Positions 1 through 38,907 of a stretch of 42,152 nucleotides of DNA are shown here, piece after piece (positions within the stretch are counted from its first letter, which is position 1; every line of letters starts with the position of its first letter). The stretch spans positions 1-42,152 of the forward strand of contig JACIYF010000007.1 in the NCBI GenBank assembly GCA_014360065.1, written 5' to 3'. The position numbers were made by a program, and so were the translations under genes. The DNA is from Clostridia bacterium (GTDB lineage: Bacteria; Bacillota; DSM-521; Neomoorellales; JACIYF01). The notes below the pieces were generated by a model. It had not been told where the DNA came from, searched no databases, and worked only from the letters and a program-made list of their open reading frames with translations.

Positions 1-354
1 GAATCCCACGGGAACGGCAATGGTCTGGGCATGGCCGACTTTACTACCCAGCGGGCGTATAGGAAGTTTGATTTTCTTATGACTTATCCCAATGCCATTA
101 CTTCCACCGTGACCAATATTGTTCGGATCCCTATGGTTTTAGATAGCGATAGGCTGGCCATCCAAGCCGCCATCAAGACTTGCAACCGCTTAGACCAAAG
201 TCAAGTGGAAATGGTAAGGATCAAGAATACCTTGAAACTATCGGAGATGCTAATTTCACCATCCCTTTTAAGCCAGGCCAAACAGCTGCCCAACGTGGAA
301 ATCGTCTCTGAACCGCAACCGCTTGGCTTTGATGCCCAAGGTAATCTTTTCTAA
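1..354 (+). CDS. C-terminal fragment of a LarA-like (DUF2088 / lactate racemase domain) protein
   Basis: The reading frame is open from the first base and ends with TAA at 352-354, so the gene begins before the window. The 117 visible residues start with ESHGNGNGLGMADFTTQRAY, followed by a stretch containing TYPNAITSTV, IPMVLDSDR and VRIKNTL. From memory this resembles the C-terminal half of DUF2088/LarA-family proteins, which include the nickel-dependent lactate racemase; related members have other or unknown substrates. The N-terminal part with the cofactor-binding residues is not visible, so activity cannot be judged. A small Cys-motif protein follows 5 nt later and may be co-transcribed. 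Family moderately sure, substrate unknown. Confidence 0.6.
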   Translation, partial: ESHGNGNGLGMADFTTQRAYRKFDFLMTYPNAITSTVTNIVRIPMVLDSDRLAIQAAIKTCNRLDQSQVEMVRIKNTLKLSEMLISPSLLSQAKQLPNVEIVSEPQPLGFDAQGNLF

Positions 355-359
355 GGCTC

Positions 360-710
360 GTGATTGTGGAGATGGGGGTAATAATACGGCCAAGCATTAC
401 CGTTGGAGTTAAGTTCTGCGGGAACTGCAATCCAGTCTTAGATGCTGCCCGGTTACTGGAGGAGCTGCAATCTCGGTTTAAGGGTATAAAGCTCGTACAC
501 CTGGCAAATGGTAATCGGCAAAAAGTAGACAAGGTATTGGTTATAAGCGGGTGCCCTGCAGACTGTGCCACTAAACCTGAGAAGGACAGGCGGGTAATGA
601 CAGTGGTGGCGGGCTTAAGCGTGAATGGTACACCTGTTATCCAGCAGGAACTAATCTCCAAACTGGCTGAAGCACTCGGGATAAGTGGCGTTAAGGGCGG
701 TTTACACTAG
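360..710 (+). CDS. Small protein with two paired-cysteine motifs, function unknown
   Basis: I do not recognise this 116-residue protein. It carries CGNCNP near residue 20 and SGCPADCA near residue 62, giving four well placed cysteines that could bind a metal or an Fe-S cluster. The second motif lies in a hydrophobic context (VLVISGC), as in small redox or ligand-binding folds. There is no signal peptide or membrane segment. Three starts are possible: GTG 360, GTG 366 (AAGG 9 nt upstream) and ATG 372; conserved-looking sequence begins after ATG 372. It lies 5 nt after the LarA-like gene and 59 nt before dapB, so it may share a transcript with the former. Coding status is supported by length, composition and the absence of a better overlapping frame. 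Confidence 0.65.
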   Translation: MIVEMGVIIRPSITVGVKFCGNCNPVLDAARLLEELQSRFKGIKLVHLANGNRQKVDKVLVISGCPADCATKPEKDRRVMTVVAGLSVNGTPVIQQELISKLAEALGISGVKGGLH

Positions 711-769
711 TTGGTGAGCATAGTACTTTATGGATGAAAACTTGGTTGTGGCATATGGGAGGCAAGGTT

Positions 770-1567
770 ATGGGGCAGGTCATCAAAGTAGCCTTGACTG
801 GTGCTAGTGGTCGTGTGGGTCGGGTGCTGACCGAGGCGCTTCTTGGTGATGAGAGATTTCATGTAGTTGGGGCAGTCGATCGAGTGGGCGTTGGCCAAGA
901 GATTAGGTCGGGAAAAAACAACATTACCATTGAGCCAGACCTGGAGGGTATTTTTTCCCGTTTTCGTCCCCAGGTTATGGTTGATTTTACCTCGGCCGAA
1001 GCCGCTAGGGCTAATTTCCGGTTGGCCCTGGCGTACAGGGTACGGCCGGTGGTGGGGACCACAGGTTTTACCCTAGCCGACCTTGATGAATTCCATAGCT
1101 TATGCGAGACCCAGCAGATCGGCGCTATCGTGGCGCCGAATTTTGCCATAGGCGCCATTCTAATGATGCATTTTGCCTCTTTGGCAGCCCGTTACTTTAA
1201 TAGTGTAGAGATAATTGAATTACACCATGATGGCAAAAAGGATGCACCATCGGGCACAGCGTTGAAGACGGCCGAGATTATTGCTCATGCTCAGGCGCGA
1301 GAAGAGGGGGCGCCGAATGGCCGGGAATCAGAAAGTACACCTGGCTGCCGTGGTGGCTGTTTTCAGGGTATCCCTATTCATAGTGTCAGGCTTCCGGGCT
1401 TGGTAGCTCACCAGGAGGTCATCTTTGGCGGTACGGGACAGACTTTAAGCATTCGGCATGACACCACATCTAGGGAGGCTTTTGTTCCAGGTGTAGTCAT
1501 GGCTATTCAAAAGGTAATGGAGATTAACCGTTTCGTGTATGGGCTGGAAGAACTTATGGAGCTCTAA
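770..1567 (+). CDS. dapB: 4-hydroxy-tetrahydrodipicolinate reductase
   Basis: DapB reduces the product of DapA with NAD(P)H to tetrahydrodipicolinate, the branch metabolite for lysine, meso-DAP and dipicolinate. The Rossmann motif GASGRVGR follows within the first 15 residues. VGTTGF, APNFAIGAILMM and the catalytic signature ELHHDGKKDAPSGTA are all present, as is the C-terminal GQTLSIRHDTTSREAF. The frame stays open back to ATG 734, but I chose ATG 770: GGGAGG at 757-762 is correctly spaced and the 265-residue product matches the family length. The gene leads a six-gene set with dpaA, dpaB, asd, dapG and dapA. The 80-nt gap to dpaA holds a long inverted repeat. Confidence 0.95.
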   Translation: MGQVIKVALTGASGRVGRVLTEALLGDERFHVVGAVDRVGVGQEIRSGKNNITIEPDLEGIFSRFRPQVMVDFTSAEAARANFRLALAYRVRPVVGTTGFTLADLDEFHSLCETQQIGAIVAPNFAIGAILMMHFASLAARYFNSVEIIELHHDGKKDAPSGTALKTAEIIAHAQAREEGAPNGRESESTPGCRGGCFQGIPIHSVRLPGLVAHQEVIFGGTGQTLSIRHDTTSREAFVPGVVMAIQKVMEINRFVYGLEELMEL

Positions 1568-1574
1568 GCGCTGC

Positions 1575-1640
1575 ACCTCCCGGTTGCTAACTTCATATAT
1601 TGCTATCGGTGGTAGCAAGCTGAGGATGCAAACGGGAGGT
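1575..1640 (+). promoter_or_regulatory. Inverted repeat that can sequester the dpaA ribosome binding site
   Basis: Arm 1 (ACCTCCCGGTTGC, 1575-1587) and arm 2 (GCAAACGGGAGGT, 1628-1640) are complementary at 12 of 13 positions. Arm 2 contains GGGAGGT, the Shine-Dalgarno sequence for the GTG start at 1648. Between them TTGCTA (1600-1605) and TAGCAA (1613-1618) can form an inner hairpin; a second TTGCTA at 1584-1589 overlaps arm 1 and could compete for TAGCAA. Read-through RNA from dapB would contain both arms. The predicted effect is repression of dpaA translation; no folding energy was calculated. Confidence 0.6.
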
Positions 1641-1647
1641 TCTCAGG

Positions 1648-2535
1648 GTGACGCCAGCGCTAAGTGGTCAGAAAATAGCCGTACTAGGTGGTGATGAAAG
1701 GGAATTAATCCTCATCCCGGAATTGGTGAAGCTTGGTGCCGAGGTTTGGGTGGCGGGATTTGATTCAGCCGCAAATAGTCTTAGCGGAGTGCGCTTGTCT
1801 GACCTCGATTCGGCTGTGCGCGGGGCTAGGGTTGTTATCTTGCCAATGCCCGGTACTGATGGGGAAGGAGTCATCAGAGCCGTCTACTCATCCAGCAAAC
1901 TTATCCTGCAGGAAACTCACATTCAGTCAGTGACTCCCGGGGCCCTCATCTTAATTGGAGTTGCCAAAGAATTTCTGCGGGCATGGGCTAGGAAGTATCA
2001 GGTCCAATTAGTTGAAGTGGCGGAGCTGGATGATGTTGCCATCTACAATTCTATTCCTACCGCTGAAGGTGCAATTCAAATTGCTATGCAGGAAGTGCCA
2101 ATAACCATTCATGGTTCTGAATCATTTGTATTAGGTTTTGGAAGGGTTGGACAAACTCTGGCACGAACCCTGAAGGCGTTGGGAGCTAAGACTACCGTTG
2201 TGGCTAGGAGCCCTACGGCGCGGGCCAGTGGTTTTGCGCAAGGACATAATGTTATTTCCTTTGAACAATTGCAGATGCGTATTGGCGTTGCTGACATTAT
2301 ATTCAATACGGTACCGGCACTCATCCTCACCGAGGGCTTACTGGGTCATGTAAAAAGCGGTGCCTTAATTGTGGATCTTGCAACCCAACCAGGAGGTACA
2401 GATTTTCGCGCCGCTGACCGCTTGGGCATAAAGGCTATTCTAGCTCCGGGATTGCCAGGAAAAGTGGCGCCTTTAACTGCAGGGCGAATCTTAGCGCAGA
2501 CGATTCCTCCCTTGATCCTCAAGTACGTTGGTTAG
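1648..2535 (+). CDS. dpaA: Dipicolinate synthase subunit A (spoVFA)
   Basis: With DpaB this protein oxidises the DapA product to dipicolinic acid in the mother cell; the acid is loaded with calcium into the spore core and gives heat resistance. The 295-residue protein has the N-terminal signature VLGGDERELILIPELVKLGA and a second Rossmann domain with GFGRVGQTLARTLKALGA near residue 162, typical of DpaA. The start is GTG 1648, 7 nt after GGGAGGT. The neighbours dpaB, asd, dapG and dapA match the Bacillus subtilis spoVF operon order. In B. subtilis that operon is transcribed by sigma-K; here only a weak CATATATT -10-like site at 1594-1601 is visible, and the ribosome binding site lies in an inverted repeat. 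Confidence 0.93.
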   Translation: MTPALSGQKIAVLGGDERELILIPELVKLGAEVWVAGFDSAANSLSGVRLSDLDSAVRGARVVILPMPGTDGEGVIRAVYSSSKLILQETHIQSVTPGALILIGVAKEFLRAWARKYQVQLVEVAELDDVAIYNSIPTAEGAIQIAMQEVPITIHGSESFVLGFGRVGQTLARTLKALGAKTTVVARSPTARASGFAQGHNVISFEQLQMRIGVADIIFNTVPALILTEGLLGHVKSGALIVDLATQPGGTDFRAADRLGIKAILAPGLPGKVAPLTAGRILAQTIPPLILKYVG

Positions 2536-2552
2536 TACAGGGGGAGGGAATA

Positions 2553-3158
2553 ATGAGACTTCAGGGATTGAGAATAGGAGTAGCTTTGACCGGGTCTCAC
2601 TGTACTTTGGACAAAGTGATTCCGGAGATTGAAAGAATTGTAGCTGACGGCGCCAAGATCTACCCTATTTTTTCGGAAAGCGTAAGTTCTAACGCAACTC
2701 GTTTTGGGAGTCCCGAGAAATGGCTCGGTAAGCTATCTGCGCTTACCGAAGAGAAGGTTATAACTACTATCGTAGATGCTGAGCCCATTGGACCAAAACA
2801 ACTATTGGATGTTCTGGTAGTAGCGCCTTGTACAGGCAATACCTTAGCAAAGCTTGCCAATGGGATTACCGATACCCCGGTTTTGATGGCTTGTAAGGCC
2901 CAACTGCGGAATCGCCGGCCAGTGGTCTTGGCTATAGCGACTAATGATGGCCTGGGCAACAACGCCAAGAATATTGGCTTGCTTCTCAATACCAAAAACA
3001 TCTATTTAGTTCCATTTGGGCAAGACGACCCTTATAATAAAGCTAATTCCTTAATGTCTAGGATGGATTTGATAATCGATACCATAGAGTACGCTTTACA
3101 GGGGAAGCAAATCCAGCCAGTGCTGATTCAGTATGCGGTTGGGCAGGAATCGGCTTGA
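2553..3158 (+). CDS. dpaB: Dipicolinate synthase subunit B, flavoprotein (spoVFB)
   Basis: This is the flavoprotein-like partner of DpaA. The 201-residue product has the N-terminal VALTGSHCTL, the nucleotide-binding VVAPCTGNTLAKLANGITD in the middle, and NDGLGNNAKNIGLLLN followed by LVPFGQDDPYNK; together these identify the family. It starts with ATG 2553, 17 nt after dpaA, behind GGGGGAGGG. The length agrees with known DpaB proteins. The gap to the open frame of asd is only 5 nt, so both are likely on one message. Unlike dpaA, its ribosome binding site is not covered by an obvious inverted repeat, so translation of A and B may be controlled differently. Confidence 0.93.
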   Translation: MRLQGLRIGVALTGSHCTLDKVIPEIERIVADGAKIYPIFSESVSSNATRFGSPEKWLGKLSALTEEKVITTIVDAEPIGPKQLLDVLVVAPCTGNTLAKLANGITDTPVLMACKAQLRNRRPVVLAIATNDGLGNNAKNIGLLLNTKNIYLVPFGQDDPYNKANSLMSRMDLIIDTIEYALQGKQIQPVLIQYAVGQESA

Positions 3159-3208
3159 ACTAGGTGGATTTGGGCCCGGAAACCAATTTGCAGGAGGTTT
3201 TGCACCTG

Positions 3209-4204
3209 ATGTCTTTATATAATGTTGCAATAGTTGGGACTGGGGCTGTTGGGGAGACAATGGTACAAGTGCTAGAAGAAAGGCGCTTCCCTGTCAAGCA
3301 TCTTAAGCTTTTGGCTACCTCCCGGTCGGCCGGTAAACAGGTCTTGTTTCAGGGAGAACAGCATACAGTTGAAGCTACTGAACAGGATTCCTTTCGTGGC
3401 ATTGACATTGCCCTGTTTGCTGGCGGCAAAGCTAGCCAAGAATTTGCCCATGCTGCGGTGGAGGCAGGGGCGGTGGTCATTGACAACAGTAGCACCTTTC
3501 GTTTGGACCCCGAGGTTCCTCTCGTAGTTCCGGAGGTAAATGCCAATGATGCTAAGGAGCACCATGGCATAATTGCCAACCCCAACTGTTCGACAATCAT
3601 AATGGTGGTGCCGCTAAAGCCAATTTATGATGCTGTAGGTATAAGCAGGGTAGTGGTTTCTACCTATCAGGCGGTTTCTGGGGCTGGACGAGAGGCCATG
3701 GTCGAGCTTTGGGAGCAGACCCAAGATGTGATCTTTGACCGGCCATTTACGCCCAAGGCTTTCCCCCACCAAATCGCCTTCAACCTCATTCCCCATATCG
3801 ATGTCTTTATGGAGAATGGTTACACCAAAGAAGAAATGAAGATGGTAAAAGAAACCCAGAAGATTTTGCACGATCCTGATATTAGGATATCCGCGACTAC
3901 AGTCAGAGTACCAGTTCTGCGCAGTCATTCGGAAGCCATTAATATTGAGATTAACCAGGACATTTCCCTAGAGGAAGTAAGAGAGCTGCTATCGCAAGCC
4001 CCTGGGGTTAGAGTAATAGATAACCCGGATCAGTTATCTTACCCCATGCCTATTGATGCTTCGGGCCAAGATGATATACTGGTAGGTCGCCTTCGCAAAG
4101 ATATTTCCTGCTCTAACGGCCTGGTTCTTTGGGTTGTGGGAGACCAGTTACGGAAGGGCGCTGCCACCAATGCCATACAGATAGCTGAGTTGCTCATCAG
4201 CTGA
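3209..4204 (+). CDS. asd: Aspartate-semialdehyde dehydrogenase
   Basis: Asd reduces aspartyl phosphate (made by the next gene, dapG) to aspartate semialdehyde with NADPH, feeding DapA. The catalytic cysteine lies in NPNCSTIIM, the phosphate-binding region has YQAVSGAGREAM, and the active-site histidine lies in RSHSEAINIE. The N terminus YNVAIVGTGAVGETM is the NADPH-binding loop. The frame extends to GTG 3164, but ATG 3209 has AGGAGG at 3192-3197 and gives 331 residues, the usual size, so I chose it. It ends 7 nt before the dapG start. Its cytosolic role serves lysine, threonine and methionine pathways as well as dipicolinate. Confidence 0.95.
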   Translation: MSLYNVAIVGTGAVGETMVQVLEERRFPVKHLKLLATSRSAGKQVLFQGEQHTVEATEQDSFRGIDIALFAGGKASQEFAHAAVEAGAVVIDNSSTFRLDPEVPLVVPEVNANDAKEHHGIIANPNCSTIIMVVPLKPIYDAVGISRVVVSTYQAVSGAGREAMVELWEQTQDVIFDRPFTPKAFPHQIAFNLIPHIDVFMENGYTKEEMKMVKETQKILHDPDIRISATTVRVPVLRSHSEAINIEINQDISLEEVRELLSQAPGVRVIDNPDQLSYPMPIDASGQDDILVGRLRKDISCSNGLVLWVVGDQLRKGAATNAIQIAELLIS

Positions 4205-4211
4205 AGAGGCG

Positions 4212-5444
4212 GTGAGTGTCGTGCCTATCCTGGTACAAAAATTTGGCGGGACGTCTTCAGCCACCCCGGAGGCCCGCTCACAGGTGCTGGCAAAAATCAT
4301 CCATGGGGTAGAAACTGGGCACCAAGTGGTGGTAGTAGTATCTGCTATGGGCCGAAGCGGGGACCCCTATGCCACAGACACGCTTCTGGCCCTGGCTAAC
4401 AGCGTAACTACGGCTTTTCCAGAGCGAGAGCTTGATCTCTTGTTGTCTTGTGGCGAAATCATTGCTGCCGTTTTAATCGCTGCGTCCCTCAATGAAGCTG
4501 GGTATCAAGCCCAAGCTTTGACAGGCAGCCAAGCAGGCATTATCACCGATGATAACCATGGGCAAGCCCGTATTATGGAGGTGCAGCCTACTCGCTTACG
4601 TGATCTGCTGGCCAGAAACATAATTCCCGTAGTGACTGGCTTCCAGGGGGCAACCAGGGAAGGGAACGTTACTACCCTAGGTAGGGGAGGTAGCGATATA
4701 ACTGCAGCTGCGCTAGGAGTTGCGTTGCAAGCTCAGGCCATCGAGATCTATACTGATGTAGACGGCGTTAAGACGGCCGATCCTTTGCTTGTCAAAGAAG
4801 CTAAGACCTTGCCGGTAGTGACTTACAACGAAATAGTGAACTTAGCTTATGAAGGTGCCAAAGTCATTCACCCGCGAGCGGTGGAAATCGCTAGTGAGGG
4901 CAACATCCCTGTCTACATTAAATCAACCTTTGCGCCCAATAACGACCCGGGTACTTTGGTTACCAATATACCGGAAATTAGTGCCTATGCGCGAATACGA
5001 GGAGACCGACCTATTACTGGCATTACTTATGTTCGAAATATCACCCAGATAACCCTTAGAAGGGAAGATAACAGTGGTCCGCAATTCTTAGACTGCTTTC
5101 GTTTTCTAGCTGAGGCTAAAATAAGTATTGATTTTATCAACTTAACACCCGAGTGGATTGCTTTTACGGTTGCCAATGAGGTAACCTCACAAGCAGAACA
5201 GGTCCTGAATAGGCATGGATTAAGATTTAGATCCAGGCCCAATTGCGCTAAAGTAGCTGCCGTAGGGGCGGGGATGACAGGACTACCCGGAATTATGGCA
5301 GGAATAGTTGAGGCTTTACGCAATAAGGGTATTACGGTTTTGCAATCAGCAGACTCTTACACTACCATCTGGTGCTTGGTGGATGAGGGGGATTTAGAGG
5401 CGGCCGTACAGGCTTTGCATGACAACTTTAAGCTGGGCGAATGA
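4212..5444 (+). CDS. dapG: Aspartate kinase (aspartokinase I type)
   Basis: The enzyme phosphorylates aspartate, the committed step of the aspartate family. QKFGGTSSATPEAR at the N terminus is the kinase signature, with GREGNVTTLGRGGSDITAAAL and the TDVDGVKTADP segment further in. The C-terminal third contains two ACT-type regulatory segments (ITGITYVRNITQITLR and VAAVGAGMTGLPGI), so allosteric control is likely. In B. subtilis the isozyme in this operon (DapG) responds to meso-DAP, which is why I use that symbol; effector specificity is not shown by the sequence. The start is GTG 4212 or GTG 4221; an AGAGG at 4205-4209 fits the second better. The stop overlaps an in-frame ATG of dapA. Confidence 0.92.
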   Translation: MSVVPILVQKFGGTSSATPEARSQVLAKIIHGVETGHQVVVVVSAMGRSGDPYATDTLLALANSVTTAFPERELDLLLSCGEIIAAVLIAASLNEAGYQAQALTGSQAGIITDDNHGQARIMEVQPTRLRDLLARNIIPVVTGFQGATREGNVTTLGRGGSDITAAALGVALQAQAIEIYTDVDGVKTADPLLVKEAKTLPVVTYNEIVNLAYEGAKVIHPRAVEIASEGNIPVYIKSTFAPNNDPGTLVTNIPEISAYARIRGDRPITGITYVRNITQITLRREDNSGPQFLDCFRFLAEAKISIDFINLTPEWIAFTVANEVTSQAEQVLNRHGLRFRSRPNCAKVAAVGAGMTGLPGIMAGIVEALRNKGITVLQSADSYTTIWCLVDEGDLEAAVQALHDNFKLGE

Positions 5445-5461
5445 AGGAGGCTGCAAGCAAG

Positions 5462-6352
5462 ATGAAGGATTTTGGACGAGTCATTACTGCTATGGTTACG
5501 CCGTTCAAGCGGGACCAGCAACAAAGCGTCAATTATCAAGCCGCGCAGGAACTAGCAGCCTATCTGGTGGAACATGGTTCCGATGGTATCGTGGTTTCGG
5601 GGACGACTGGAGAGTCTCCTACCCTATCTGCCCAGGAGAAGCTGGACTTGATTAAAGCAGTCAAAGAAGCGGTTGGCCAAAGAGCGAAAATAATAGCTGG
5701 TACGGGCAGCAATTCTACCAGCGCTTCAATTGAACTGACCAAAAAAGTAGAGGCTCTGGATGTGGATGCTGTTCTCTTGGTAGTGCCTTACTATAACCGT
5801 CCTTCCCAGGAGGGTTTGTACCAACACTTTGCTAGCATTGCTCGCAATACTAGCTTACCCTGTATTATATATAATGTTCCTTCCAGGACTGGGCGCAACT
5901 TAGAGCCCAAAACCCTGGTGAGGCTGGCAGAAGTAGATAATATTGTCGCAGTGAAGGAAGCCAGCGGAGACTTGAACCAAGCAACGGAATTGGCTTCTTT
6001 GTTACCGGAGGATTTCTTGATCTACTCTGGGGATGATGCTTTGACCTTGCCCATCTTGTCGGTGGGTGGGTATGGGGTAATCAGTGTAGCTTCCCATGTT
6101 GCTGGCGTCCAGATTCAAAAAGTAATAAGCAGCTACGTATCCGGAAGGGTAAAACAGGCGGCCCAGATCAATTCTCAACTCTTCCCCCTTTACAAGGTAA
6201 TCTTTATTAATACCAACCCCATTCCAATTAAGGCTGCTGTCAACCTCATTGGCATAGACGTGGGCATCCCGAGGTTGCCGCTGGTGGAGGCTAGCCCACA
6301 AGAGATCGCTTCCATCCGGGAGGTTATGGTGAGATTAGGGCTTATTAGCTAG
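5462..6352 (+). CDS. dapA: 4-hydroxy-tetrahydrodipicolinate synthase
   Basis: DapA condenses pyruvate with aspartate semialdehyde. The TIM-barrel signature is complete: VSGTTGESPTLS near residue 45, the tyrosine in YYNRPSQEGLYQHF, IIYNVPSRTGRNL, and the Schiff-base lysine in VAVKEASG near residue 163. The frame begins at ATG 5441, overlapping the dapG stop, but AAGGAGG at 5444-5450 is placed for ATG 5462, giving 296 residues as in other DapA proteins. It is the last gene of the set. No convincing T-rich terminator follows; the downstream 1 kb is gene-poor and holds a decayed transposase. Confidence 0.95.
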   Translation: MKDFGRVITAMVTPFKRDQQQSVNYQAAQELAAYLVEHGSDGIVVSGTTGESPTLSAQEKLDLIKAVKEAVGQRAKIIAGTGSNSTSASIELTKKVEALDVDAVLLVVPYYNRPSQEGLYQHFASIARNTSLPCIIYNVPSRTGRNLEPKTLVRLAEVDNIVAVKEASGDLNQATELASLLPEDFLIYSGDDALTLPILSVGGYGVISVASHVAGVQIQKVISSYVSGRVKQAAQINSQLFPLYKVIFINTNPIPIKAAVNLIGIDVGIPRLPLVEASPQEIASIREVMVRLGLIS

Positions 6353-6385
6353 CAAGTAATAACCTAAATCTTAGCGTAAAATAAT

Positions 6386-6411
6386 CATGGGATTTCCCAT
6401 TCTCTCCCATG
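6386..6411 (+). other. Hairpin-forming repeat downstream of dapA
   Basis: CATGGGA at 6386-6392 can pair either with the adjacent TCCCAT (6395-6400) or with TCCCATG (6405-6411); the second pairing gives a 7-bp stem with a 12-nt loop. It follows dapA by 34 nt and could act as a 3' end or processing structure. There is no T tract, so I do not call it a rho-independent terminator. Confidence 0.3.
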
Positions 6412-6435
6412 GAAAGCTAAGGGCCTAAAAAAGTT

Positions 6436-6480
6436 GAGACCTCACTCCGAAGTGGGAATTGAAAGGGGGAATGAGGTCTC
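6436..6480 (+). repeat. Inverted repeat abutting the start of the decayed transposase
   Basis: GAGACCTCACTCC (6436-6448) and GGAATGAGGTCTC (6468-6480) are complementary at 12 of 13 positions, and the second arm ends at the base before ATG 6481. The purine-rich AAAGGGGG between them would be the ribosome binding site. It may be a subterminal structure of the insertion element or a translation-limiting hairpin. The matching far end of the element was not found. Confidence 0.55.
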
Positions 6481-7170
6481 ATGAATAACTTTTCTGAAAC
6501 CAGAATACCGCATGAGGCCGCTACTTTCAAGGATATTTTACAGTGGGTTTTCGGGATGGTGGCAAAATCCTTTGCCCGCCATATAGGACATCTCTTAACC
6601 GCCATGGACCAGGCCCTGGCGGTAAGGAACAAACTTTGTTATACCATGCGGGGGTGGGAGTCCATAGGCAAAAGGAAGAGGACCATCGTTAGCCTGTTTG
6701 ACCTTGAGATCACCTACTACCCTGCGGGTACCGGAAGAGCATCGAAGGCCAGCTCGCCTACCGCTACCCCCTGGATGAGGCCCTCTTTGAGGACGGAGAG
6801 CTCCCATCTACCCGAGACCAGATCGAGACCGCTTTCCGGGAAAAAAGCCGGTCTTCTCCCTGCTGCCATAAGCTCAACCTGCCGTCCTTTGCCAAAGAGG
6901 ACCTGGTTTGTTCATTCGGACTGTTAGAATATGGCTCCTCTCACTTTCGAAGGATGCGCTACTCTAAAAAGACTGTGGCTATTTATACTTTAGTGGGTAT
7001 ATAGCTCTTCCGCCATCTTAAGCCACCTCTTTGGTGTCTCCCCTTCAGCGGATGCCATCTTAATCTGGATCAAGAAGGTGGCCTTATGCTTTTACCGAGA
7101 GGTTGGGCAAGTAGAGCTTTTGGCGTTCGGAAGGCGGTTGGCCAGATTAAGCGTTTTAGGTGCCCCATAG
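6481..7170 (+). pseudogene. Decayed transposase, UPF0236/ISLre2-like with an HTH fragment
   Basis: The segment reads as transposase only if frames are changed. From ATG 6481 the first frame gives IGKRKRTIVSLFDLEITYY, which resembles the KRT-I--LFGE-TF-RRYY region of UPF0236 proteins. Around 6725 sense moves to another frame (RKSIEGQLAYRYPLDEALF, then RRMRYSKKTVAIY) up to TAG 7002-7004. From 7006 the original frame resumes with SHLFGVSPSADAILIWIKKV, which looks like a helix-turn-helix of the GVSPS-VL-WIKK type, ending at TAG 7168. At least two frameshifts and a stop make it non-functional. Two different element remnants may be joined near 6930. Family assignment is from memory of motifs and is only moderately sure; the decay is clear. 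Confidence 0.6.
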
Positions 7171-7267
7171 CGGGCTGTCAACGGGCTAACTGGCTAGATT
7201 TCTGCAGGGTGATGCTCGGGCATCCTGAAACTTTATGGGCAACGCAAATCGCTTAATTGCTAAACTG
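7171..7267. other. Non-coding stretch before the rimP promoter
   Basis: Together with 6353-7170 this completes a gap of about 1 kb without an intact gene between dapA and rimP. I see no further gene, RNA or clear repeat here. One frame reads PIAGCQRANW near 7160-7190, which may be the last trace of the decayed transposase, but the evidence is thin. Confidence 0.3.
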
Positions 7268-7296
7268 TTGCTCGAGCAAGTGCAGTATGTTATAAT
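7268..7296 (+). promoter_or_regulatory. Sigma-A-type promoter of the rimP-nusA-infB operon
   Basis: TATAAT at 7291-7296 is a perfect -10 hexamer with the extended TGN element (TG at 7288-7289). TTGCTC at 7268-7273 is an acceptable -35, with 17 bp between the hexamers. Transcription would start near 7303, about 95 nt before the rimP start. Confidence 0.75.
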
Positions 7297-7324
7297 GACG
7301 TTGCGTGAGGATGGATCTCAGTAG

Positions 7325-7346
7325 AAGAGTGGGTTTTCCCACTCTT
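7325..7346 (+). promoter_or_regulatory. Leader hairpin between promoter and rimP
   Basis: AAGAGTGGG (7325-7333), a TTTT loop and CCCACTCTT (7338-7346) form a perfect 9-bp stem inside the predicted 5' leader. Only a weak T-rich run (TATTACTT) follows, so it could be an attenuator, a NusA-sensitive pause site or just a stabilising element. Position and perfection are visible; the role is inferred. Confidence 0.5.
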
Positions 7347-7398
7347 TATTACTTCATTAAAAGGCTGTCGGGATCAAGCGGCTCAGGAGGTGGACAGG

Positions 7399-7851
7399 GT
7401 GGGTTCTTTAAAAAATCGTATCCGATCAATGACAGAGCCTCTTATTAGTAACATGGGTTATGAGCTAGTTGACGTGGAATACGCCAAAGAAGGCAAGGAA
7501 TGGTTTCTCCGTTTTTACGTAGATTCGCCATCAGGAATTACACTAGATGACTGCGAAAGGCTCAGCTACACCTTGAGCGAGCTCCTAGACCGTGAAGACC
7601 CTGTGCCTCACGCTTACAATTTACAGGTTTCTTCTCCCGGCTTAGAGAGGCCTCTAAAGAAACCGTCCGATTTCGCCAGATTCGCTGGACGAATGATAAC
7701 TTTAAAGACTACTCAACCTCTTGAGGGGCACCGTAAGTGGAAGGGGCAAATAGTAAGCGCTCATGAAGAAGGCATAGTGTTGAGGACAGGCGATGTCGAG
7801 ATGGAGATACCATACGGCCTGATTTCCTCGGCTCGGTTGGCAATTTATTGA
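7399..7851 (+). CDS. rimP: Ribosome maturation factor RimP
   Basis: RimP assists maturation of the 30S subunit. The 150-residue protein has the family features: MGYELVDVEYAKEGKEWFLRFYVD near the N terminus, the DDCERLSYTLSELLD helix and the hallmark VSSPGLERPLKKPSDFARF near residue 85, followed by an SH3-like C-terminal domain. An upstream in-frame GTG (7390) lies within AGGAGG (7385-7390), so GTG 7399, 8 nt after that site, is the better start. It is the first gene of the operon with nusA 19 nt downstream, the usual order in Firmicutes and many other bacteria. Confidence 0.94.
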   Translation: MGSLKNRIRSMTEPLISNMGYELVDVEYAKEGKEWFLRFYVDSPSGITLDDCERLSYTLSELLDREDPVPHAYNLQVSSPGLERPLKKPSDFARFAGRMITLKTTQPLEGHRKWKGQIVSAHEEGIVLRTGDVEMEIPYGLISSARLAIY

Positions 7852-38021: not shown

Positions 38022-38043
38022 CCTCCTTGTGGGGTGAAGGAGG
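38022..38043 (+). promoter_or_regulatory. Hairpin pairing an anti-Shine-Dalgarno with the pgeF ribosome binding site
   Basis: CCTCCTT (38022-38028), loop GTGGGGTG and AAGGAGG (38037-38043) form a perfect 7-bp stem that closes the full Shine-Dalgarno of pgeF (ATG 38053). The loop is short, so the hairpin would be in any pgeF transcript starting upstream, unlike the sigG and ylmC cases. Role in translation control is inferred. Confidence 0.5.
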
Positions 38044-38052
38044 ATTTTCGCC

Positions 38053-38907
38053 ATGTTGCGCCATCTACTTGCGGATGCGTGGTCATGGCAAAGCTCCGGA
38101 GGAGTAGACTTTCTGGCCTTGCCGCTGGCTGTGGGCTCAAGCTCAGCTTATGCTTATTTTTCCTCCCGTATAGGTGGGGTAAGTGAGCCTCCTTATGATC
38201 AGCTCAATTTGTCATGGTCGGTAGGCGATGACGCTGAGAATGTGGAAATGAACCGGCGGCGCTTCGCTGGTGCGCTGGGCCTAGCTGTGGATGCGATCAT
38301 TTGGTTACGGCAGGTGCATAGTGACCAGGCGGTTATCATTGATTCTCTTCCCTTCCGATATTCTTACACCTATACCGGCGGTGAAGTTCTGGTCGGTGAC
38401 GCGTTAATCACCGATCAGGAGGGAACCGGGCTGTGTACTAGCCATGCCGATTGTGTGCCTGTGTATGTAGTTGACCCTGTGCGGCATGTTGGCGCCATGA
38501 TTCACGCCGGGTGGAGGGGAACAGTGGCTGGTATCGTTGAAAAGACCTTAGCAGCAATGGCAGCTCGTTGGGGATCGGAGCCTAAGGATTGCATTGCTGC
38601 CATTGGGCCTAGTATAGGTCCGTGCTGCTACCAGGTTGGAGCGGAAGTTGTAAGTGCTTTAGCCAAAAATGTACCTTCACCGGTTAAGGCGTTTGATAAG
38701 GCGGCAGCAAAGAATCAAAGCTCGGACAGATATTCCTTGGATCTAAAGCTGATTATTGCCGGGATACTGCAATTCTATGGACTTGAGCCCGACCGGATCA
38801 TCCAGAGTAGGTTATGCACGTCTTGTTTGCCTGAGTGGTTTTATTCTCATCGACGGGATAAGGGAAAAACAGGGAGAATGGCGGCAGTTTTAGTTTTGGG
38901 CACTTAA
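38053..38907 (+). CDS. pgeF: Peptidoglycan editing factor PgeF (YfiH/YlmD, polyphenol oxidase family)
   Basis: PgeF-type proteins remove L-Ser wrongly built in at position 1 of the stem peptide; the family is also annotated as a laccase or purine-nucleoside enzyme. The 284-residue protein has AYFSSRIGGVSEPPYDQLNL at the start, WLRQVHSDQAVII, the metal-binding set TSHADCVPV and MIHAGWRGTVAGIVEKTL, AAIGPSIGPCCYQVG, and TSCLPEWFYSHRRDKGKTGR at the end. The invariant His-Cys-His ligands are therefore present. ATG 38053 has AAGGAGG 9 nt upstream. It lies in the ylm gene neighbourhood near ftsZ as in many Firmicutes. Confidence 0.92.
   Translation: MLRHLLADAWSWQSSGGVDFLALPLAVGSSSAYAYFSSRIGGVSEPPYDQLNLSWSVGDDAENVEMNRRRFAGALGLAVDAIIWLRQVHSDQAVIIDSLPFRYSYTYTGGEVLVGDALITDQEGTGLCTSHADCVPVYVVDPVRHVGAMIHAGWRGTVAGIVEKTLAAMAARWGSEPKDCIAAIGPSIGPCCYQVGAEVVSALAKNVPSPVKAFDKAAAKNQSSDRYSLDLKLIIAGILQFYGLEPDRIIQSRLCTSCLPEWFYSHRRDKGKTGRMAAVLVLGT

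Follow-up and report, generated by a model that had tools for sequence, protein, structure and literature searches.

The window analysed here, a stretch of 42,152 nucleotides from a Clostridia bacterium (contig JACIYF010000007.1), carries a lysine/DAP operon on its plus strand. Dipicolinate synthase consumes a precursor of lysine and the cell wall, and its genes, dpaA and dpaB, sit inside that precursor's operon; dpaA, required only in late sporulation, lies amid genes for growth. The products of dapB, dpaA, dpaB, asd, the dapG-type kinase gene and dapA each scored over an NCBIfam cut-off. The features of the region are:

770..1567, plus strand: dapB, 4-hydroxy-tetrahydrodipicolinate reductase, the upstream growth gene (TIGR00036 over cut-off); start taken as ATG 770 from the Shine-Dalgarno (SD) sequence GGGAGG at 757-762, within the mechanical ORF 734-1567
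1575..1587, plus strand: 5′ arm of an inverted repeat; its ACCTCC is predicted to pair with the dpaA SD and its first two bases are the −35 AC
1575..1576, plus strand: −35 AC of a putative sigma-K-type promoter, within GCACC 1573-1577
1594..1601, plus strand: −10 CATATATT of the putative sigma-K-type promoter, by motif
1609, plus strand: assumed transcription start, placed from the −10
1628..1640, plus strand: 3′ arm, with the dpaA SD GGAGGT (1635-1640)
1648..2535, plus strand: dpaA, dipicolinate synthase subunit A, GTG start (TIGR02853 and NF006162 over cut-off)
2553..3158, plus strand: dpaB, dipicolinate synthase subunit B (TIGR02852 over cut-off)
3209..4204, plus strand: asd, needed in growth (TIGR01296 over cut-off); ATG 3209 chosen by SD AGGAGG 3192-3197
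4221..5444, plus strand: dapG-type aspartate kinase gene (NF006068 over cut-off); start chosen by SD
5462..6352, plus strand: dapA (TIGR00674 over cut-off); start chosen by SD

No terminator was called in the window between dapB and dpaA, and asd follows dpaB; transcription from upstream may read into dpaA. A sigma-70 promoter for asd was also considered and rejected; a scan of positions 1-7500 gave 8 matches versus 8.4 in shuffles, and none of the plus-strand matches fell within dpaA, within dpaB or ahead of asd.

The dpaA SD lies in an inverted repeat

The two arms between dapB and dpaA pair at 12 of 13 positions and lie 40 nt apart. RNA of positions 1560-1660 folds at −41.8 kcal/mol (z −3.19), ∼10 kcal/mol better than the mean of 200 shuffles, none of which folded equally well, and the inner hairpin TTGCTA/TAGCAA (1600-1605/1613-1618) is also present in this fold. 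Both the long repeat and the inner hairpin described in the original prediction are thus confirmed. Repeats with arms matching at 12 of 13 positions (loop 3-60, overlaps merged) occur three times in the window, compared with a mean of 0.75 in 20 shuffles. The dpaA SD (core GGAGG, 1635-1639) falls inside the 3′ arm, and the GTG at 1648 begins 7 nt downstream. Among the 28 plus-strand genes scored (SD matching at least 5 of 6 positions; sigG and ylmC fall outside this set), the dpaA SD was the least accessible, at 0.0008. The second most hidden SD (0.003) precedes the PF02578 laccase-domain gene at 38053-38907, where CCTCC at 38022-38026 stands opposite GGAGG at 38039-38043.

A search of the genome returned no second copy of the hairpin, only chance matches of 14-19 nt at E 3.2, and a repeat element was ruled out on this basis. 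Rfam gave no match in the window at the gathering threshold; at E≤10 there were three sub-threshold snoRNA matches, all outside the hairpin. A riboswitch (such as the lysine riboswitch), a T-box or another known RNA family was rejected for want of an Rfam match.

Hairpins were also seen elsewhere in the window. Right after spoIIR, a 12/13 repeat (37561-37573/37605-37617; 14 contiguous pairs in the fold, 37562-37575/37603-37616) covers the TTG start (37611) of the YlmC/YmxH sporulation gene (TIGR02888) and the preceding G-rich stretch; CATATAAT lies between the arms, the fold has a z of −2.56 (3/200 shuffles), and some relatives fold likewise, with no overall excess. The third 12/13 repeat (6435-6447/6469-6481) stops at the first letter of the ATG of ORF 6481-6927, for which Pfam gave no match; this repeat may be the end of a mobile element, folding back over its start. 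In the sigE-sigG gap, a perfect 11-bp repeat (CTCCTTTCCTT/AAGGAAAGGAG, 35975-35985/36033-36043) lies over the SD of sigG (start 36051), with sigma-F/G-like promoter elements between its arms. Predicted pairing of this SD with upstream sequence is 0.97 versus 0.72 in shuffles, and the repeat may form a further lock like that proposed for B. subtilis sigG; such a lock is not consistent in relatives.

A putative sigma-K-type promoter overlaps the repeat

The −10 of sigma-K promoters has the form CATANNNTA. In the window, AC at 1575-1576 is followed after 17 nt by CATATATT, which differs from that form at the last A only (G). The original prediction had placed 1594-1601 only tentatively in a late promoter, with a partial fit to sigma-K; this late promoter turns out to be the key element, but the reservation about sigma-K does not, given an AC exactly 17 nt upstream and a single mismatch in the −10. 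We conclude from the motif that CATATATT at 1594-1601 is the putative −10 of a sigma-K-type promoter. The same arrangement, AC-N16..18-CATANNNT, was present in 159 of 164 dapB-dpaA gaps (a count that includes the window's own gap and some repeated genomes). The commonest spacing was exactly 17 nt (AC-N17-CATA; 137 of the 159 promoter-bearing gaps), and the −10 was CATATATT, CATATACT or CATATAAT in 140 gaps, with CATATATT the most frequent (54/159). Sigma-K itself is encoded in the window's genome (G000:C63; TIGR02846 over cut-off, 337.6 bits). According to the relevant passages of two papers (PMC517825; PMC3789822), sigma-K promoters have AC rather than ATA at −35, share their −10 with sigma-E and have 14-16 nt separating the promoter elements, and C. 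difficile dpaAB is a sigma-K target with a sigma-K-dependent promoter.

By motif, the −35 is inside the 5′ arm and the −10 lies between the arms. Because the −35 (1575-1576) is within the 5′ arm, RNA born at this promoter would not contain that arm.

Predicted opening of the SD in read-through and late RNA

In a scan of RNA 5′ ends by predicted folding, the dpaA SD was almost closed for 5′ ends from 1400 to 1575 (unpaired 0.007-0.035), partly open for 5′ ends at 1577-1580 (0.13-0.43), and open for 5′ ends from 1582 to 1620, which were all alike (0.64-0.65), so that the opening was insensitive to the exact start. Predicted opening in promoter-born RNA is thus about 0.65, or 0.65-0.76 when the folding of the compared gaps is also considered. 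On these predictions, the switch point between the closed and the open SD is the −35 region. The late RNA is predicted to form a weak hairpin that takes in part of the dpaA SD. Opening of the GTG start does not track that of the SD in these models: it was 0.36-0.57 in late RNA, varying with the 5′ end, and mostly 0.48-0.76 in read-through folds, falling to 0.12 with a 5′ end at 1400.

The original prediction also held that RNA read from dapB would close dpaA and leave asd, dapG and dapA translatable. In silico, this was borne out: the SD-supported starts of dpaB, asd, dapG and dapA had a predicted opening of 0.28-0.57 in read-through RNA versus 0.00 for dpaA, and other possible starts of the same genes had 0.17-0.41. 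A ribosome finishing dapB would presumably cover no more than a few bases at the front of the 5′ arm.

SD pairing across relatives

Loci of dpaA were the better-scoring among the matches listed, from 84 and from 287 genomes with dpaA matches; a weak match, L208, was left out. From 196 loci, removal of two partial ones (L054, L060) gave 194 whose N terminus was usable, counting that of the window, and in 164 of these a same-strand dapB ended no more than 500 nt before dpaA (in 30 none did). Five gaps without the promoter pattern (L014, L050, L097, L134, L180) were set aside, leaving 159; removal of 10 repeats gave 149 unique gaps, from which 77 representatives with <70% amino acid identity were drawn.

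Over the 149 unique gaps, the mean predicted fraction of unpaired SD was 0.27 in read-through RNA versus 0.60 in late RNA (p 4e-19). Because the late RNA is shorter, shuffling the segment upstream of the late start is a fairer test; in this test, pairing of the SD with that segment was 0.63 for native versus 0.45 for shuffled sequence (p 9e-10). The excess was present in gaps of <100 nt (n = 87; 0.69 versus 0.44 in shuffles) and absent from gaps of >200 nt (n = 20; 0.43 versus 0.42). Comparison of the dpaA and dpaB SDs within 70 loci showed no significant difference (0.32 versus 0.36, p 0.09; dpaA lower in 42).

Native arms also paired better than arms swapped between species (p 6e-6; 60 representatives with a gap of up to 130), including outside the SD core (p 1.5e-4). 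For the 17 representatives with a terminator or a longer gap, neither comparison was significant (p 0.10, and 0.75 outside the core). When the swap was scored by full folding, native arms were favored over 106 gaps (p 2.6e-4) and weakly over the 60 representatives (0.64 versus 0.57, p 0.067). Covariation in a fixed register (18 columns, uncorrected) was for the most part uninformative, since there is hardly any variation among the core pairs; ac+7 alone stood out (p 0.006 in representatives).

Absence of both arms from relatives had been named as grounds for abandoning the prediction. The gaps compared here do not refute a lock on dpaA, because the promoter recurs in 159/164 of them and SD pairing exceeds that in shuffles, although the exact CCTCC form was found in only 49/149 gaps. 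The fuller pattern ACCTCC-N13-CATATNNT-SD occurred 24 times in 101 genomes, including 20 times at dpaA, and its reversed control had no match; this exact pattern of anti-SD, −10 and SD thus appears specific to dpaA, but the form is present in only 20 of the 101 genomes.

Comparable layouts were noticed before other genes. At L232:1501-1590 the same order of anti-SD, −10 and SD, 20 nt after a same-strand gene, precedes a tyrosine/glycine-rich repeat protein that looks coat-like by eye (fold z only −1.0). At L209:1499-1565 (G063), GCACCTCC, CATATTCT and AAGGAGG precede a 220-aa protein that by eye resembles a ferritin; since the gene nearest upstream is divergent, a role in read-through is not expected.

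Gaps with a terminator and control leaders

Terminators in relatives were sought upstream of the promoter only. A first caller made 15 calls, and a second, adopted after the first visibly missed cases, made 27, of which L015, L102, L139 and L167 may be false. The gaps with a terminator, which sits between dapB and the promoter, belong mostly to Syntrophomonadaceae. Terminator-free representatives (n = 68) showed SD upstream pairing of 0.65 versus 0.43 in shuffles (p 2.9e-6), whereas the representatives with a terminator after dapB (n = 9) showed no excess (0.38 versus 0.43, p 0.43). Compared directly, the two kinds of representatives differed at p 0.088, and over the 149 gaps, with the first caller, at p 0.005. 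CCTCC was present in 1 of 27 gaps with a terminator versus 48 of 122 without (p 2e-4 over 149), an exclusivity that faded over the 77 representatives (p 0.26) because terminators cluster in Syntrophomonadaceae. The contrast between anti-SD and terminator is thus suggestive, resting mostly on one clade rather than on independent cases. Among loci with enough sequence, the distance from dpaB to asd was under 400 nt in 33 of the 35 that lack a terminator and in all 23 that have one; as asd is close behind dpaB in both kinds, a contrast in gene order gives no support.

Leaders of sigG and ylmC were compared in a similar way, with the upstream segment cut 12 nt before the SD instead of at a promoter-based start, so that the match to the dpaA method is inexact. 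For sigG (25 of 30 leaders measured; any frame of at least 150 codons on that strand was accepted as the upstream gene, whether or not it was sigE), SD upstream pairing was 0.33 versus 0.41 in shuffles (p 0.09), a difference in the opposite direction. For ylmC (30 of 30; in the window's own copy the SD finder chose a site outside the arm), there was no excess (0.56 versus 0.49, p 0.26). The lack of excess in both sets argues against a general artefact of pyrimidine-rich leaders. At dpaA genes without dapB upstream, mean pairing was 0.56 (22 of 30 measured, no shuffles); because these genes pair fairly often, the group is not a clean negative control.

Discussion

We consider it probable that dpaA carries a translational lock against read-through that is opened by the gene's own late promoter, and the idea that dpaA is blocked in read-through RNA is largely supported in silico. 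A read-through RNA from dapB, if made, would carry the 5′ arm, and its ACCTCC would pair with the dpaA SD GGAGGT and extend into the long hairpin. With the SD closed, ribosomes would be unable to start dpaA in growing cells, and asd, dapG and dapA, further along the same growth RNA, would stay translatable. Late in the mother cell, sigma-K polymerase would start at the promoter inside the hairpin; the lock would be opened because this late RNA begins past the 5′ arm, leaving the SD free, so that dpaA-dpaB would be made when dipicolinate is wanted. One stretch would thus do two jobs, as the −35 in DNA and as an anti-SD in RNA, the latter only in transcripts arriving from upstream.

A rival explanation, which we regard as unlikely, is that the pairing is a by-product of a −35 reading GCACC(TCC) and an SD reading GGAGG, in which case any sigma-K promoter near a good SD would resemble a lock. 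This would fit the fact that GCACC is the conserved part, and that both swapped arms (0.57 versus 0.64, representatives) and dpaA genes without dapB upstream (0.56) still pair substantially. However, in gaps that have a terminator GCACC is mostly retained but reads GCACCA (12/15 in the first caller's set), and few of these gaps have CCTCC (1/27 versus 48/122, although p is 0.26 over representatives). Arms that match beyond the core (p 1.5e-4), and sigG and ylmC leaders without excess over shuffles, also speak against a by-product.

It is far less probable still that the dyad acts as DNA, as an operator over the −35 for a sporulation regulator such as SpoIIID. SpoIIID is encoded in the window's genome, and relatives (for example L013, L019 and L050) carry ACARGCACC around the −35, the ACAAG part of which resembles a SpoIIID box; but the window's copy has GCGCTGCACC in place of ACAAG. 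Moreover, the arms differ in sequence from lineage to lineage yet still fit their native partners better than swapped partners, and operators do not evolve in that way. The dyad could nevertheless serve as operator and lock at once. We give equally little credence to the hairpin being an attenuator, a terminator or an RNA-processing site for the downstream genes. A strong hairpin does stand directly after dapB, but no T-run follows the 3′ arm, on which ground an intrinsic terminator or attenuator was rejected, and there is neither a called terminator nor an Rfam match there.

Returning to the lock on dpaA, a wider proposal can be made tentatively. In a large part of the spore-forming phylum, the −35 that sigma-K would use at dpaA may have a dual use, as a DNA site for the late polymerase and as an anti-SD in growth RNA. 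Lineages whose growth RNA has to cross dpaA on its way to asd-dapG-dapA would have retained it, and those in which a terminator does the job instead would have lost it. Other sporulation genes might evolve this design time and again, as at sigG and ylmC in the window, and locks with a promoter in one arm might be a general answer for sporulation genes in active operons. If true, the lock would explain how this gene order persists over deep evolutionary time without a repressor.

Comparison with known systems

For the transposases of IS10 and IS200, read-in RNA folds over the start and RNA from the element's own promoter does not (fold-back inhibition). Those elements guard against chance read-through, whereas at dpaA it is the operon itself whose transcription would read through. 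Known sigma-K promoters have the same −35 AC, the −10 shared with sigma-E and similar spacing, but here the −35 would also be one strand of an RNA helix. A search of open-licence full text for dipicolinate synthase, dpaA/spoVFA and dapB yielded no such lock for dpaA in titles or abstracts.

The closest precedents, as far as the relevant passages of the papers describe them, are in phage T4 and in B. subtilis. In the leaders of T4 gene e (lysozyme), I-TevI, soc and 49, an RNA helix takes up the SD, the start or both. With gene e and I-TevI, the SD is folded away in the long early transcripts, and the late promoter is so placed that its RNA, lacking the 5′ strand, is translated (PMC3014915, PMC2988022). 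The same properties are predicted for dpaA: by folding, the SD is paired in the long RNA and free in the short RNA, and by the promoter motif the short RNA would lack the arm. T4 gene e is a phage gene read with the T4 late sigma and its effect was measured; dpaA is in a chromosomal operon with a sigma-K-type promoter in many bacterial families, and its effect is a prediction. In B. subtilis, a large hairpin was proposed to block translation of sigG in spoIIGA-sigE read-through RNA, and RNA started at the sigG promoter is unable to form it (PMC5942855). That gene belongs to the forespore (sigma-F/G) and its upstream operon to sporulation, whereas the operon upstream of dpaA is biosynthetic. 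In the window's relatives, a lock at sigG leaders is not consistently present. Such a lock has an established logic in T4 gene e and I-TevI and a proposed one in B. subtilis sigG; what sets dpaA apart is the breadth of its occurrence and a −35 that would also serve as an anti-SD.
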